Positions 43,596 to 49,099 of a DNA stretch of 63,113 nt are shown piece by piece. Source of the stretch: Litoreibacter sp. GTDB lineage: Bacteria; Pseudomonadota; Alphaproteobacteria; Rhodobacterales; Rhodobacteraceae. The stretch spans positions 1-63,113 of the forward strand of contig JAPORH010000200.1 in assembly GCA_026710325.1 (NCBI GenBank). Reading direction: 5' to 3'. Made by a program: the position numbers and the translations under genes. The notes beneath the pieces were generated by a model. The model worked only from the letters and a program-made list of their open reading frames with translations, was not told where the DNA came from and did no database searches. The number at the start of each line of letters is the position of its first letter. The first letter of the stretch is position 1.

Positions 43596-43946
43596 CTAAT
43601 CGTTACCCTCACGTAACGTTTTTTGAACGCTTTTGGGCAGCTTATCGAAGATCAGTTGGTAGGAAATTGCGAGCCGTTCTTGCAACTCATCATCAGGCAC
43701 CATGCCCCACGGGATCCGGATCCAACTGCGATGAAAATAGGGCGCCTTGATCGCGCGACCCATTTCAATCAACAACGAGGCTGTTTCAATGTCGGGCGTT
43801 TTGACGGACACGCCTTCGCCTTTATGCGCGATCAAGGCAAACATCTTGCCGCCGACCTTCCAGGAAGGGTGCTCGCCCGTGCTCTCATCTGCCCATTCGG
43901 CGCCGGGCAGGCTTTGACAGTAGTCATTCACAGTATCGCGGCTCAT
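43596..43946 (-). CDS. MmcQ/YjbR-family protein
   Basis: 116 residues. The compact CyaY-like fold of the family is indicated by SRDTVNDYCQSLPGAEWADES, the WKVGGKMFALIAHKG strand pair, VSVKTPD and the closing HRSWIRIPWG and ISYQLIFDKLPK. The family is often annotated as DNA-binding, without firm biochemical support. ATG 43946 is preferred to 43955 because an AGG precedes it. Confidence 0.85.
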   Translation of the reverse strand: MSRDTVNDYCQSLPGAEWADESTGEHPSWKVGGKMFALIAHKGEGVSVKTPDIETASLLIEMGRAIKAPYFHRSWIRIPWGMVPDDELQERLAISYQLIFDKLPKSVQKTLREGND

Positions 43947-43970
43947 GCATTGCAACCTGTCACAAAAGCC

Positions 43971-43999
43971 TTGGCCGATCCAGATTTCACTGCTATGCC
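43971..43999 (+). promoter_or_regulatory. Probable promoter of the cysS-cimA leader
   Basis: TTGGCC (43971-43976) and TATGCC (43994-43999) are separated by 17 bases. The start point would fall at or within a base or two of the ATG at 44006, making the leader peptide leaderless, which fits the lack of any ribosome site before it. The -10 match is only partial. Confidence 0.4.
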
Positions 44000-44005
44000 A
44001 CTCCC

Positions 44006-44050
44006 ATGAATAAGACCTGCACCATCATTTGCTGCTGCATTACCATCTGA
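44006..44050 (+). CDS. Cys/Ile/Thr-rich leader peptide upstream of cysS-cimA
   Basis: Fourteen codons, MNKTCTIICCCITI. Eleven of the 14 residues are Cys (4), Ile (4) or Thr (3), with three TGC codons in a row at 44030-44038. It stands 81 bases before cysS, whose product charges tRNA-Cys, and cimA, whose product opens the citramalate route to isoleucine. The composition matches the two downstream genes, as in classical attenuation leaders. The surrounding RNA can form mutually exclusive stems (44011-44108). No upstream ribosome site is seen; a leaderless mRNA is likely. The reading as a regulatory peptide is inference, but random occurrence of this composition is improbable. Confidence 0.7.
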   Translation: MNKTCTIICCCITI

Positions 44051-44108
44051 CATCAGTCAGGCGGGTCTTAACCATTTCCATCAGAGACATGAGTTGCTAA
44101 GCCCCGCC
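44011..44108 (+). promoter_or_regulatory. Attenuator-like alternative RNA pairings before cysS
   Basis: Segment 44061-44070 (GCGGGTCTTA) can pair with leader codons at 44011-44020 (TAAGACCTGC), 10 bp with one G-U, or, extended by G44060, with 44098-44108 (TAAGCCCCGCC), 10 bp with one mismatch. The two pairings exclude each other, and the first would be blocked by a ribosome on the leader. A small hairpin CTGAC/GTCAG (44047-44060) covers the leader stop. No U-run follows the second stem, so control may be of translation or Rho-dependent termination and not by an intrinsic terminator. Confidence 0.55.
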
Positions 44109-44131
44109 GGGACACTTGCGCGTGAGGCCAC

Positions 44132-45493
44132 ATGACCATCAAACTCTACAACACCGCAACCCGCCAGAAAGAGGTTCTGACACCGATCAAACCCGGTGAG
44201 GTCTCGATGTACGTCTGTGGTCCAACGGTTTATGACCGCGCCCATATCGGCAATGCGCGCGCAGTGCTCGTGTTCGATATGCTTTTCCGTCTGCTCAGAC
44301 AGGAATATGGCGCTGAGTCAGTGCGTTACGTGCGAAACTTCACGGATGTCGATGACAAGATCAACGCCCGCGCCGCAGAGACAGGGCGGGAGATCAGCGA
44401 CATCACCGCCGAAACCACCCAATGGTTCCTCGATGATATGGCCGCCATCGGCGCGCTTGAGCCCACTGATATGCCGCGCGCGACCGCTTACATCCCGCAG
44501 ATGATCGCGATGATCGAGGAGCTAATCGAAAAGGGCCACGCATATGCCGCCGAAGGGCACGCGCTCTTCCGTGTCCGCTCCTATGAAGAATACGGCAAGC
44601 TCTCAGGCCGCTCGGTCGACGATATGATCGCAGGCGCGCGGGTGGAGGTCGCACCGTTCAAAGAAGACCCGATGGATTTCGTGCTTTGGAAACCGTCTGA
44701 CGAAAATACGCCGGGATGGGACAGCCCATGGGGCAGGGGCCGCCCCGGCTGGCATATCGAATGCTCGGCCATGGCAAACGACCTGCTCGGGTCCGAGTTC
44801 GACATCCACGGCGGTGGCAACGACCTGACCTTCCCGCATCACGAGAACGAAATCGCCCAGTCCAAATGCTGCGGCCACAGCTTCGCGCGCATCTGGATGC
44901 ATAACGAGATGCTGCAGGTCGAAGGCAAGAAGATGTCCAAGAGCTTGGGCAATTTTTTCACTGTGCGTGACTTGCTCGACCAAGGCGTCTCGGGTGAGGT
45001 GATCCGCTTCGTTATGCTCTCCACCCATTATCGTAAACCGATGGATTGGACTGAGAAGAAGCGGCAAGAGGCAGAGAACACATTACGCAAGTGGTATCGT
45101 GTCACCGAGGGGCTTGATGCGGGTGAAGACGTTTCGGCCGATGCTTTGGACGTAATGAAAGACGATCTAAACACTGCAGGTGCAATTGCCGCGTGTCATA
45201 AACTTGCAACGGAACAGAACTTTCGGAAACTCAAAAAAACGATGCAGTTTCTAGGATTGCTCATAGAGCACACGCCAAGCTGGGCTTTGCAAAACGAAGT
45301 AGACCTTAGTTCGTTTGAAACTCTGCTCTTTGAAGCGCGTCAAGCTGCCATGCAAAACAAAGATTTCTCAGAAGTTGACCGTCTCAAAGCGGGGCTACTC
45401 GACGCAGGTGTTTCGGTGATGATGTCAAAAGACGGGGTTTCGCTTGAACCAAAACCGGAGTTCGACGCAGCCAAATTAGAGGCTCTAAAATGA
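44132..45493 (+). CDS. cysS: Cysteinyl-tRNA synthetase
   Basis: 453 residues, class I synthetase. The HIGH motif is HIGN at 38-41, preceded by the zinc Cys in [39 protein letters not shown] with further zinc ligands, and KKMSKSLGN (KMSKS, about 267-271) complete the active site. The C-terminal helical domain is intact. GAGG lies 4 bases before ATG 44132. It overlaps cimA by ATGA and follows the Cys-rich leader peptide. Confidence 0.97.
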
Positions 45494-47106
45494 CCAAAGA
45501 CCGCCTCTACCTTTTCGACACAACATTGCGCGACGGGCAGCAAACGCAGGGCGTACAATTTTCGACCTCCGACAAGGTTCAAATCGCCACCATGCTGGAC
45601 GAGATCGGGATCGATCATATCGAGGGGGGCTGGCCCGGCGCGAACCCGACCGATAGCGAATTTTTCGCGAAGGCCCCAAAAACCCGCGCCACCATGACCG
45701 CTTTCGGGATGACCAAAAGATCAGGTCGTTCGGCAGAAAATGACGATGTGCTGGCACCCGTTCTCAATGCTGGCACGCCTTCTGTCTGTCTGGTGGGCAA
45801 GACGCATGATTTCCATGTCGAGACAGCTCTGGGCATCAGCCTGGACGAAAACCTCGAAAACATCGCGGCGTCGTTCAAACATATCGTGGCCCAAGGGCGC
45901 GAGGCGATCTTCGATGCGGAGCATTTCTTCGACGGCTACAAATCCAATCCTGATTACGCCCTGAAAGCAGTCCACGCTGCCTATGATGCAGGTTGCCGCT
46001 GGATCGCGCTTTGTGACACCAATGGTGGGACGCTTCCGTCCGAGGTTTCCGATATCGTCCACGCCGTGATCGCCTCAGGCCTGCCGGGCGACCACCTCGG
46101 CATCCACACTCATAACGACACGGAAAACGCCGTCGCGGGTAGCCTTGCAGCCGTAGACGCTGGGGCCAGACAAATTCAGGGCACGCTCAACGGGCTAGGG
46201 GAGCGTTGTGGCAATGCGAACCTGACGTCGATCATCCCAACATTGCTACTCAAACCCCATTTCGCGGAGCGGTTTGAGACGGGCATCGCACCCGAGAACT
46301 TGCCAAAGCTCACGCTCGCCTCTCGAAAGCTCGATGACATTCTCAATCGCGTGCCGAACCGGCAAGCGCCTTACGTGGGAACCTCCGCCTTTGCTCATAA
46401 GGCGGGCTTGCATGCCTCCGCGATCCTTAAGGACCCGACGACCTACGAGCATGTTGACCCGGGTGCCGTCGGTAATAGGCGCATCATCCCGATGTCCAAT
46501 CAGGCAGGCCAATCCAACCTGCGCAAGCGTCTGTCGGAAATGGGGCTGCCAGAGGTCGACAAAGCCGCGCTTCCGCGCATTCTCGATCGGATCAAGCAAG
46601 CCGAGGACAAGGGATATAGTTACGACACAGCCCAGGCATCGTTTGAGATGTTGGCGCGGTCTGAACTTGGCCTCATCCCGGACTTTTTTGAGGTGAAGCG
46701 GTACAAAGTTACGGTCGAGCGGCGGAAGAACAAGTACAATCAGATGGTGTCCTTGTCGGAGGCCGTCGTCGTTGTCAAAGTCGGCGATGAGAAGATGCTC
46801 AGCGTTTCCGAATCCGTAGATGAACAGGGCTCTGACCGGGGGCCGGTAAATGCGCTCTGGAAAGCACTGGTGAAAGACTTGGGCCGCTACACAAGTGTGC
46901 TTGAGGACATGCATCTGGTCGACTTCAAAGTCCGCATCACCCAAGGCGGCACAGCTGCTGTGACGCGCGTTATTATCGACAGCGCAGATAGCGCCGGACG
47001 CAGATGGTCCACCGTCGGGGTTTCGCCTAACATTGTAGATGCGTCTTTTGAGGCACTTCTCGATGCGATCCAATGGAAGCTGATCCAGGAAGGGGCTGCC
47101 GCGTGA
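45490..47106 (+). CDS. cimA: (R)-citramalate synthase
   Basis: 538 residues, LeuA-like HMGL family. It joins pyruvate and acetyl-CoA to citramalate, the first step of the threonine-independent route to 2-ketobutyrate and isoleucine. The N-terminal [16 protein letters not shown] has the metal Asp; [40 protein letters not shown] has the metal His pair. The C-terminal (about 400-535) is the regulatory LeuA dimer domain, and the length fits CimA better than IPMS. It overlaps cysS by 4 bases. Confidence 0.92.
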
Positions 47107-47870
47107 GTTTGGAAGCCTGCGCGGCACTTGTTGAGGAGGCGGACCCAGATCGTTTTGCAACCGCGCGTCTCGCCGACGACCGCGTGCAACGCATTCTCTG
47201 GCCACTCTATGCGTTCAACATTGAAGTCACACGCGCCCCTTGGGTGACCCAAGAGCCAATGATCGCTGAGATCAGACTTCAATGGTGGCGCGACGCGTTG
47301 GAGGAGATACGGGAAGGGCGCAAAGTTCGATCGCACGCGGTTACTGTGCCTTTGGCGGAGGTGTTGGACGCGGAGGGCGCAATGGTGCTCGACCGGCTGG
47401 TTGAAGCGCGCGCCTGGGACATCTACAGCGACCCGTTTCCAGATCAAAAAAGCTTCGACGCTTATATAGACGCAACCTATGGCGGGTTGTTCTGGACAGC
47501 GGCGCGGCTCATTGGCGATGCGTCTGAAGCCATGATCCGCAAATTCGCCTACGCCTGTGGGGTTGCAGCGATCCTACGCGCCGCGCCCGAACTTGCGCGA
47601 CGCGGGCGTGACCCGCTACCAGTGGACGACGTGGCAGGATACAAGGTTTTAACAGGTGGCGCCTTAAACGCTTTAGACGCGGCCGTTGCTGAAAAGGAGC
47701 ACGTGCAAGCGGATCACGAAGCCCTTATGCTCTCTGGCTGGCAAACACGATCTCTCCTGCGTGCCGCCTTGGCGGATTCCGAGAGCAGTTTCAAAAATGG
47801 CGTTACACTGTCCGAGTTTTCGCGCAGGTTTCGGCTTTTTAAGCTCTCGACCTTGGGATGGTGGCGCTAG
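47103..47870 (+). CDS. Squalene/phytoene synthase-like protein
   Basis: 255 residues of the trans-isoprenyl diphosphate synthase head-to-head fold. The usual first Asp-rich motif DxxxD is replaced by a region around RLADDRVQRILWPLYAFN, and EIRLQWWRDALEE and YIDATYGGLFWTAARLIG follow. This form resembles NDUFAF6-like proteins found in alphaproteobacteria and mitochondria more than true phytoene synthases. GTG 47103 overlaps the cimA stop (GTGA). It shares its stop as CTAG with the convergent MFS gene. Confidence 0.82.
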   Translation: MSLEACAALVEEADPDRFATARLADDRVQRILWPLYAFNIEVTRAPWVTQEPMIAEIRLQWWRDALEEIREGRKVRSHAVTVPLAEVLDAEGAMVLDRLVEARAWDIYSDPFPDQKSFDAYIDATYGGLFWTAARLIGDASEAMIRKFAYACGVAAILRAAPELARRGRDPLPVDDVAGYKVLTGGALNALDAAVAEKEHVQADHEALMLSGWQTRSLLRAALADSESSFKNGVTLSEFSRRFRLFKLSTLGWWR

Positions 47871-49099
47871 GCTGCGCGCCTGCGGTCAATCATCAGCCAG
47901 ACCAAAGCGCCGCCCGCCAAAGCCAGGAACGGCCCCATTGCGTAGTTCACGGCGTTCCAACCTTCGACCGCCGTGCCGCCCGAACAGTTCATGAGACCGC
48001 CTGAGGCAAGTGAAGCCACGGTAACGCAGCCGAATACCAGCGCATCATTCATGCCCTGAACCCGGCCACGTTCAGCGACGGAATGGGATGATGCCAGCAA
48101 AGTCGTGGCCCCGATAAAGCCGAAATTCCAGCCAAGCCCTAATAGGATCAAAGCGCCGAAGAAATTTACAAGCTCGACACCCGTCAGCGCGACAACGCCT
48201 GCGAAGCCCAAAATGATCAAACCTGCGCCAATGATCTTCTCGACCCCAAACCGTGCGATAAGGTGGCCCGTGAAGAACGACGGGGCGAACATAGCAAGCA
48301 CATGGGCGGATACGATGTCGTTGGCGTTGTCATTGGTGAAGCCGCAGCCCACTACAGCCAGGGGCGTCGATGTCATGACCAAGTTCATCAAGGCATAGGA
48401 CACCATGGCGCAAATCACGGCGACGGCGATACGCGGGTCTTTCAGAAGCGCCGCTTTGCTGCGCGCGGCAGCGGAGCCCTTCTTGATCTGATCAGTAACT
48501 TGGTCCGGCAGGTTTAGCGCAAAGAACAGGAACAAACCAACTAGGTTCAGTACAACAACCGCCGCATAGGTGCCGAAGAACGGCACCATCCAGGCGTCCA
48601 TGACCCCCTTGTTCAATTGAGGGCCCAGAATTGCGGACAGAAGCCCGCCCGCCATCACATAAGAGATCGCTTTGGGCTTGAAATCATCTGAGGCCATGTC
48701 GGTGGCTGCAAAGCGGTAGAACCCCTGCGCGGACATGTAGATTCCTGTCAGGTAACTGCCTGCCAAAAGTGTGATGAAAGAGCCGATATAGAGCCCGAAG
48801 GCTGCCATCGCAGCGCCCGCCGCGCCTGCCAATGCGCCGATGATGAACCCAGCTTTGCGACCATTGCGCTGCATATATGGGCTCAGCCAAGGCGCGGTTG
48901 TCATCGAGCCAAAAACGATCATCGAAATTGGCAGTGTCGCGAGGCAAGGGTTCGTTGACAACATGTTGCCCGCGAGACCGCCCGTGACGAAAATCATCGG
49001 CATCTGCGCGCCAAGAACAGCTTGAGCGAGTACAAGCACGACCACATTCCGCCGCGCGGCTGCGTCGTCATAGTCGGGAGTGAGCGCTTGATCGGTCAT
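47867..49099 (-). CDS. Major facilitator superfamily transporter
   Basis: 410 residues with about twelve hydrophobic helices and a central cytoplasmic loop (about 200-215). The loop after helix 2 carries SPYMQRNGRKAGFIIG, a variant of the MFS motif A. The substrate is unknown. It lies 27 bases downstream of cobB on the same strand, so a link with cobalt or corrinoid metabolism is possible but unproved. Confidence 0.85.
   Translation of the reverse strand: MTDQALTPDYDDAAARRNVVVLVLAQAVLGAQMPMIFVTGGLAGNMLSTNPCLATLPISMIVFGSMTTAPWLSPYMQRNGRKAGFIIGALAGAAGAAMAAFGLYIGSFITLLAGSYLTGIYMSAQGFYRFAATDMASDDFKPKAISYVMAGGLLSAILGPQLNKGVMDAWMVPFFGTYAAVVVLNLVGLFLFFALNLPDQVTDQIKKGSAAARSKAALLKDPRIAVAVICAMVSYALMNLVMTSTPLAVVGCGFTNDNANDIVSAHVLAMFAPSFFTGHLIARFGVEKIIGAGLIILGFAGVVALTGVELVNFFGALILLGLGWNFGFIGATTLLASSHSVAERGRVQGMNDALVFGCVTVASLASGGLMNCSGGTAVEGWNAVNYAMGPFLALAGGALVWLMIDRRRAA

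Follow-up and report, generated by a model that had tools for sequence, protein, structure and literature searches.

The locus raises the question of whether a very short reading frame, placed ahead of a cysteinyl-tRNA synthetase gene, controls that gene and the one behind it, and which amino acids it would report on. The window, i.e. the whole stretch of 63,113 nucleotides of Litoreibacter sp. DNA analysed here, carries on the forward strand a leader ORF at positions 44006..44050 (ATG at 44006, TGA at 44048-44050), reading MNKTCTIICCCITI. Its translation matches a first, sequence-only reading of this DNA, which had counted 14 codons with four Cys, four Ile and three Thr, and includes tandem cysteines (CCC). 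The stop codon is separated by 81 nt from the start (44132) of cysS, encoding cysteinyl-tRNA synthetase (44132..45493, forward strand; NCBIfam TIGR00435, 439 bits vs. a cut-off of 340), which overlaps by 4 bases with cimA, encoding citramalate synthase (45490..47106, forward strand; TIGR00977, 581 bits vs. a cut-off of 450). Both names pass the NCBIfam cut-offs, and the cysS-cimA operon proposed behind the leader is supported. A search of the region against Rfam returned no family matches. Judged by comparison with related sequences, the Cys/Ile leader ahead of cysS-cimA is real and widely conserved, and we infer that it controls the two genes.

A Cys/Ile-rich short frame was found in 78 of 81 cysS loci (80 named relatives and the window), located 113-178 nt upstream of cysS; it is absent at L024 and L052 and doubtful at L058. 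The leader of Ruegeria pomeroyi strain SZCCDBG043 (locus L026) reads MTRTIRIIICCITR. From 586 loci in named genomes, the 80 with a cysS most similar to that of the window were taken; leader starts were assigned with a scoring rule and, at some loci, corrected manually. Composition figures for this named set refer to 77 leaders (without L022, L024, L052 and L058), the alignment and swap tests to 75 loci (additionally without L038 and L068) and the folding of the Shine-Dalgarno (SD) region to 73 loci. L021 and L022 have identical sequence, the same contig coordinates and the same leader; the 'Flavobacteriia' MAG label within this pair is probably wrong, since the same contig stretch belongs to a Roseobacter MAG. 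A covariance model of the leader built from 75 loci matched 213 genomes in an even sample of 244 from the order (90 of 100 genera), all of which, as listed, belong to the family of the window. Among 190 genomes drawn from the class, 14 matched, three of them strongly and from the same family, while the 11 weak matches had no cysS motif within a flank of about 1.5 kb; the leader thus appears to be a cysS feature of that family. Multiple matches occurred in 20 genomes, with one strong match each and 21 extra matches at E-values from 4e-4 to 1e-2. Extra copies of the element were considered and dismissed as noise: 10 of these extra matches, examined as loci, showed no cysS motif in about 1.5 kb.

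The codon content of the leaders is strongly biased. In 163 distinct leaders (all distinct ones minus two known to be without cimA), Ile makes up 30% (617) and Cys 23% (471) of residues, and Leu 2.3% (47). Loci from L083 on were accepted only with a promoter score of at least 4 and at least three Cys or Ile, a rule that favours the reported composition; the 77 leaders of the named set, unconditioned on cimA, agree with these figures (31% Ile, 24% Cys). At loci L083-L130 and L142, included in the 163, the flank ends near the position of cimA and cimA status was unread. The background in cysS genes of the named set is 3.9% Ile and 0.8% Cys. Counted back from the end of the frame, codon -3 encodes Ile in 152 of the 163 leaders. 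Cys stands at codon -5 in 125 leaders and at codon -4 in 115, with Ile there in 29 and 36, respectively, and 428 of the 489 places at codons -6 to -4 are Ile or Cys. At these core positions Ile and Cys interchange between leaders; ATY and TGY differ by two bases, yet codons only one step away are seldom seen, a pattern pointing to selection for 'an Ile or Cys codon'. An alignment of relatives had been suggested as a check by the sequence-only reading, and there both the short frame and its Cys/Ile codons are kept. The joint Cys/Ile/Thr leader that it had put forward stood for Cys and Ile, whose codon content is conserved, and fell short for Thr, which is enriched (about 16% of residues) yet looks structural, since its commonest place (codon -2, ACC; 76 of 163) sits inside the arm of the stop-codon hairpin described below. 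Threonine as a third sensed amino acid was rejected, its commonest position being a pairing arm.

The same counts bear on two other explanations of the frame. One is a sensor of Cys only, with Ile codons kept for RNA or peptide reasons and cimA as a passenger. The Cys codons do match cysS directly, some leaders are poor in Ile (two of 163 have a single one), and codon -3 is nearly fixed as ATT (145 of 163; 44039-44041 in the window) against the usage of the genes, ATC being 75% of Ile codons in cysS genes of the named set, so that part of the Ile conservation may lie at the RNA level. However, Ile is more numerous than Cys, the two are swapped at codons -6 to -4, the leaders at L187 and L224 have one Cys and several Ile, and the sole leader type found without cimA is the Ile-poor one; we regard a Cys-only sensor as improbable. 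The other is that the Cys-rich peptide acts itself, during its own synthesis, either as a sensor of metal or redox state or by arresting the ribosome. Very short nascent peptides remain inside the ribosomal tunnel, as would these, and despite the frequency of tandem Cys at codons -5 and -4 the CC pair is dispensable (CICI, TICI and GICI forms occur) and Cys and Ile replace each other, which makes this explanation hardly credible.

The occurrence of the leader was then compared with that of cimA. The N-terminal motif of CimA lies no more than 640 nt downstream of cysS in 81 of 81 loci of the first set, a figure biased by the choice of the most window-like of 586 loci. The neighbourhood of cysS was also read in 76 further loci, from 80 of the 244 genomes in which the covariance model was weak or silent. 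The cimA motif is present in 64 of these 76, and the leader is recognizable in 53 of the 64 (52 by rule and L168 by eye) and missing in 11. The remaining 12 loci have no cimA nearby, and the best genome-wide match is LeuA-like and only 32-34% identical; in eight control genomes, the CimA match is 69-100% identical and lies beside cysS. Ten of the 12 genomes lacking a CimA-grade match are without leader, and two, from one genus, possess the Ile-poor MDWICCLCRA, with three Cys and one Ile. An absent or Ile-poor leader where cimA is missing is what a joint sensor of Cys and Ile predicts, although the cases of cimA loss represent few lineages, nine of the 12 falling in one genus. Nine of the ten genomes without leader and cimA belong to this genus, g7 (L158, L163, L164, L165, L167, L171, L217, L223 and L228), in which cysS directly follows another frame that abuts it upstream. 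The same kind of upstream frame end is seen at L207, also of g7, with cimA present and the leader absent; overall, g7 loci with cimA have the leader in four of five cases (one by eye). Threonine deaminase as a replacement for cimA was also considered, and dropped because the search was non-discriminating (20 of 20 genomes matched, 0 of 20 over the cut-off).

A second cysS was observed in the window's own genome (L002 1-3486; contig C43, about 47672-48970). It encodes 446 aa, 51% identical, and scores above the TIGR00435 cut-off. By eye, an abutting GTPase-like frame with a His-rich stretch lies upstream and a Fur/Zur-like frame downstream; this copy looks like a spare for zinc starvation.

At the RNA level, the sequence-only reading had predicted that 44061-44070 can pair either with the leader's own codons at 44011-44020 or with 44098-44108. 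The first pairing, helix H1 (44011-44020 with 44061-44070, forward strand, 10 bp), appears in the minimum-energy fold of the leader at exactly these coordinates, and it recurs when the longer stretch 43960-44160 is folded. The same fold contains helix H3, the stop-codon hairpin (44047-44051 with 44056-44060, forward strand), which is longer in many relatives and there also includes GCGGG. The second pairing was found with minor shifts: segment 2 (44060-44069) can pair with segment 3 (44099-44108, forward strand) through six pairs, one mismatch and three pairs, as read from the sequence, and this 2:3 pairing excludes both H1 and H3. Segment 2 (GCGGGC) and segment 3 (GCCCGC) lie about 35-45 nt apart, and the partners in H1 are, in the relatives, early leader codons and bases just upstream of a T-rich tract. 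The leader RNA of the window folds at z = -3.1 against dinucleotide shuffles, but at only z = -0.58 for the longer stretch 43960-44160; over the 75 loci, the fold of the leader RNA beats that of shuffles in 74 (mean z -1.98).

The covariation that had been proposed as a check on both exclusive pairings is present in permutation and nearest-relative swap tests. When native partners were compared with permuted ones over 75 loci, 0 of 5000 permutations reached the native value for each of H1, H3 and 2:3, vs. 395, 1040 and 4997 of 5000 for mismatched controls. In the stricter swap, where partners were exchanged only between closest relatives (37 pairs), p-values were 0.003 for H1 (22 better, 11 worse), 0.00013 for H3 (20 better, 5 worse) and 0.0009 for 2:3 (25 better, 9 worse), and 0.051, 0.04 and 0.9 for the controls; with two controls at 0.04 and 0.051, the support for H1 is modest. 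The 2:3 helix is the only one found by RNAalifold on the whole alignment. Its cells pair in 85.6% of cases vs. 80.1% in shuffles, and 42 cells changed on both sides, compared to a shuffle mean of 24.2 and at most 8 in slid versions, whereas two of the five measures (counts) were not above shuffles (75 and 97 of 500). The flank pair of 2:3 switches between G-C and C-G (28 and 21 of 75).

Two promoters are predicted around these elements. The first, the putative leader promoter (43971..43999, forward strand), consists of a -35 box TTGGCC (43971-43976), a 17-base spacer and a -10 box TATGCC (43994-43999), and its predicted start, by arithmetic on the coordinates, is 44006, the A of the leader ATG. 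In the relatives, TA at -12/-11 before the leader ATG is present in 73 of 77 loci, TTG at -36 (±2) in 63 of 77, both together in 59 of 77, and C at -1 of the leader start in 64 of 79. A Shine-Dalgarno-like motif precedes 5 of 77 leaders vs. 54 of 77 cysS starts of the same loci. Both the promoter geometry and the absence of this motif fit a leader ORF that is predicted to be leaderless.

The second candidate promoter lies within the switch: the conserved T-run/TTGCTAAG looks like a promoter, a feature of 44075-44103 absent from the sequence-only reading. We read the element (44075..44110, forward strand) as a second sigma-70 promoter with -35 TTTCCA (44075-44080), TG at 44095-44096 and -10 TAAGCC (44098-44103), whose transcript would begin at 44110, past segment 3. 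A position -7 without T is usual in Alphaproteobacteria (PMC8407463). In the 75 aligned loci, TT at -35/-34 is kept in 73 and 75 and TG at -15/-14 in 68 and 73, a purine occupies +1 in 65, and both TT and TG stand at a fixed distance to TA (23 bases, T94 to A117, in 74) with free spacer bases; the base at -11 served as anchor of this alignment, and that at -12 partly so. TT-N18-TGNTA occurs in 60 of 77 leader-to-cysS stretches and in 18 of 1540 shuffled ones. Within the weaker set, 22 of 54 loci with a leader carry it, as do 8 of the 11 loci outside g7 that lack one (L156, L157, L159, L160, L161, L162, L170 and L201), compared to 0 of 11 g7 loci scored leader-less by rule (including L168, with its leader recognized by eye); the motif is therefore common, not universal, and separable from the leader. 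These counts also bear on the view that 44075-44110 is a promoter alone, its match to segment 2 being incidental and the 2:3 switch nonexistent. Promoter geometry accounts for much of the conservation, and a CCCGC/TCCGC core is present, in our reading, in three of the eight leader-less loci that keep the motif. Nevertheless, 2:3 covaries, including the exchange of G-C for C-G at its flank, and we consider a promoter without switch very unlikely.

How the pairings would act on cysS is the next point. The cysS Shine-Dalgarno GAGG (44124..44127, forward strand) is predicted to be freed once segment 2 pairs with segment 3. In folding of the window, the probability of this site being unpaired is 0.27 with segment 2 removed and 0.73 with segment 2 free. 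Over 73 loci, the corresponding values are 0.48 with native segment 2, 0.40 with permuted (p = 1.7e-5) and 0.35 with removed segment 2, and the site is freest (0.59) in the transcript starting after segment 3; the effect is absent or reversed at many loci (of the 73, 25 rise and 4 fall by more than 0.1 relative to permuted). Sequestration of the SD region by segment 3 is suggested by the folds on average, but not by covariation: for this pairing the simple swap test gave 57 of 5000 but the comparison with nearest relatives p = 0.36 (16 better, 18 worse), and with the latter value we keep it as a presumed step.

The other possible output is transcription termination. The statement that the downstream stem has no U-run was borne out for the window, in which a terminator scan of 43850-44200 gave no terminator-like site and no 8 nt within 27 nt after GCGGG hold more than four T. 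Two hallmarks of trp/his-type attenuation are present in the window, a leader ORF whose codons match the amino acids of the operon and exclusive pairings overlapping the ORF, and the third, an intrinsic terminator, is not found there. In relatives, 65 of 75 loci have an 8-nt stretch with at least five T in the 27 nt that follow GCGGG, and in 35 of 75 such a stretch starts 0-2 nt past the stem; because of this U-rich tract, termination stands as an alternative output. In that explanation, H1/H3 and the U residues would form an intrinsic terminator, a stall at Cys codons would prevent termination and the promoter-like motif inside would have a secondary role; termination through Rho is a variant of this explanation. 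It corresponds to the published model for uORFC-8-2 (Brewer et al., 2021; PMC8632094), an element upstream of Rhodobacterales cysS described, in the part of that account considered here, from 145 examples as having tandem Cys codons and two stems, with ribosome-mediated attenuation proposed and the U-run read as an intrinsic terminator. The folding of the leader RNA in 74 of 75 loci also agrees with it. Against it, besides the T-poor window, the spacing of the most conserved T pair is constant relative to TGNTA and not relative to the stem, and 2:3 covaries yet forms only once such a terminator has already been passed. We rate termination as rather unlikely, though deserving some weight.

The reading that we favour, and hold to be fairly probable, is a ribosome-mediated attenuator in which a leaderless ORF reads the charging of tRNA-Cys and tRNA-Ile and governs cysS and cimA together. 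Transcription would begin on the first base of the leader's start codon. As long as Cys and Ile are plentiful, the ribosome would complete the leader and depart, H1 and H3 would form, segment 2 would be hidden and expression would be low. With Cys- or Ile-tRNA scarce, the ribosome would stall at codons -6 to -3 and, given the usual size of a ribosome footprint, cover the 5' arm at the stop codon, so that segment 2 could pair with segment 3 and cysS be expressed, we think mainly via the freed Shine-Dalgarno region. The inner promoter, starting just past segment 3, would supply a basal cysS transcript without the switch. Comparison among relatives supports the leader, its codon choice, H1, H3, 2:3, the promoter geometry and the cysS-cimA linkage. 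The stalling, the direction of the response, the output step and the activity of both promoters are what we infer from this arrangement. A more specific formulation, to which we give an even chance, is that a leaderless ORF responds to two amino acids unconnected in metabolism (Cys or Ile) and couples a synthetase gene to cimA, whose product is the first enzyme in the pathway of another amino acid, while a second promoter lies inside the switch; one DNA stretch would then be RNA pairing arm and -10/discriminator at once, and the basal transcript, starting just past the regulatory arm, would escape control.

If this attenuator is real, one short leader would, in most of the family, make a single operon follow the charging of tRNA-Cys and tRNA-Ile, probably raising cysS and cimA together when Cys or Ile runs short, and this would explain why the two genes remain together. 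The published model would have to be corrected, as the best-conserved part of the uORFC-8-2 'terminator U-run' would probably be a promoter element, and an alphaproteobacterial leaderless regulatory ORF would join the mycobacterial ones.

Among known systems, erm-type translational attenuators, in which a ribosome stalled in the leader ORF changes the RNA pairing so that a Shine-Dalgarno site is released, resemble the sequence of events presumed here; their signal is a drug, whereas here it would be amino-acid supply, and the SD-sequestering pairing is without covariation support. The enterobacterial attenuators thrL (Thr, Ile) and ilvL (Ile, Val, Leu) likewise have a single leader for more than one amino acid tied to the products of the operon, but they serve linked pathways and employ intrinsic terminators, while here a tRNA synthetase is coupled to an enzyme of an unrelated pathway. 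The mycobacterial leaderless polycysteine short ORFs (Canestrari et al., 2020, as cited in PMC9031893 and PMC9094748), whose elongation speed reports Cys supply, are similar in being leaderless (here predicted), Cys-rich and placed ahead of operon genes. They are likened to the present leader by their features as described in the parts of those papers considered here, and not by sequence relation: they belong to another phylum and other operons and have contiguous Cys codons, whereas here Cys is mixed with Ile. The closest system is uORFC-8-2, which also lies ahead of cysS in Rhodobacterales and has a short ORF containing tandem Cys codons. As far as the considered part of its description (PMC8632094) goes, it concerns Cys alone, without Ile or cimA, and ends at the U-run, while the window's leader has Ile codons and cimA behind it, shows no U-run after the stem and includes a 2:3 pairing that extends beyond that point, besides a predicted leaderless start and a putative inner promoter supplying the conserved T pair. 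Searches of the open-licence literature gave no description of a role for Ile, of the leaderless start or of the inner promoter. The opinion of the sequence-only reading that such a leader had not been described accordingly holds for the Ile/cimA half and fails for the Cys half, predicted in 2021 as uORFC-8-2; the Ile part, the promoter layout and the switch pairing are apparently new.
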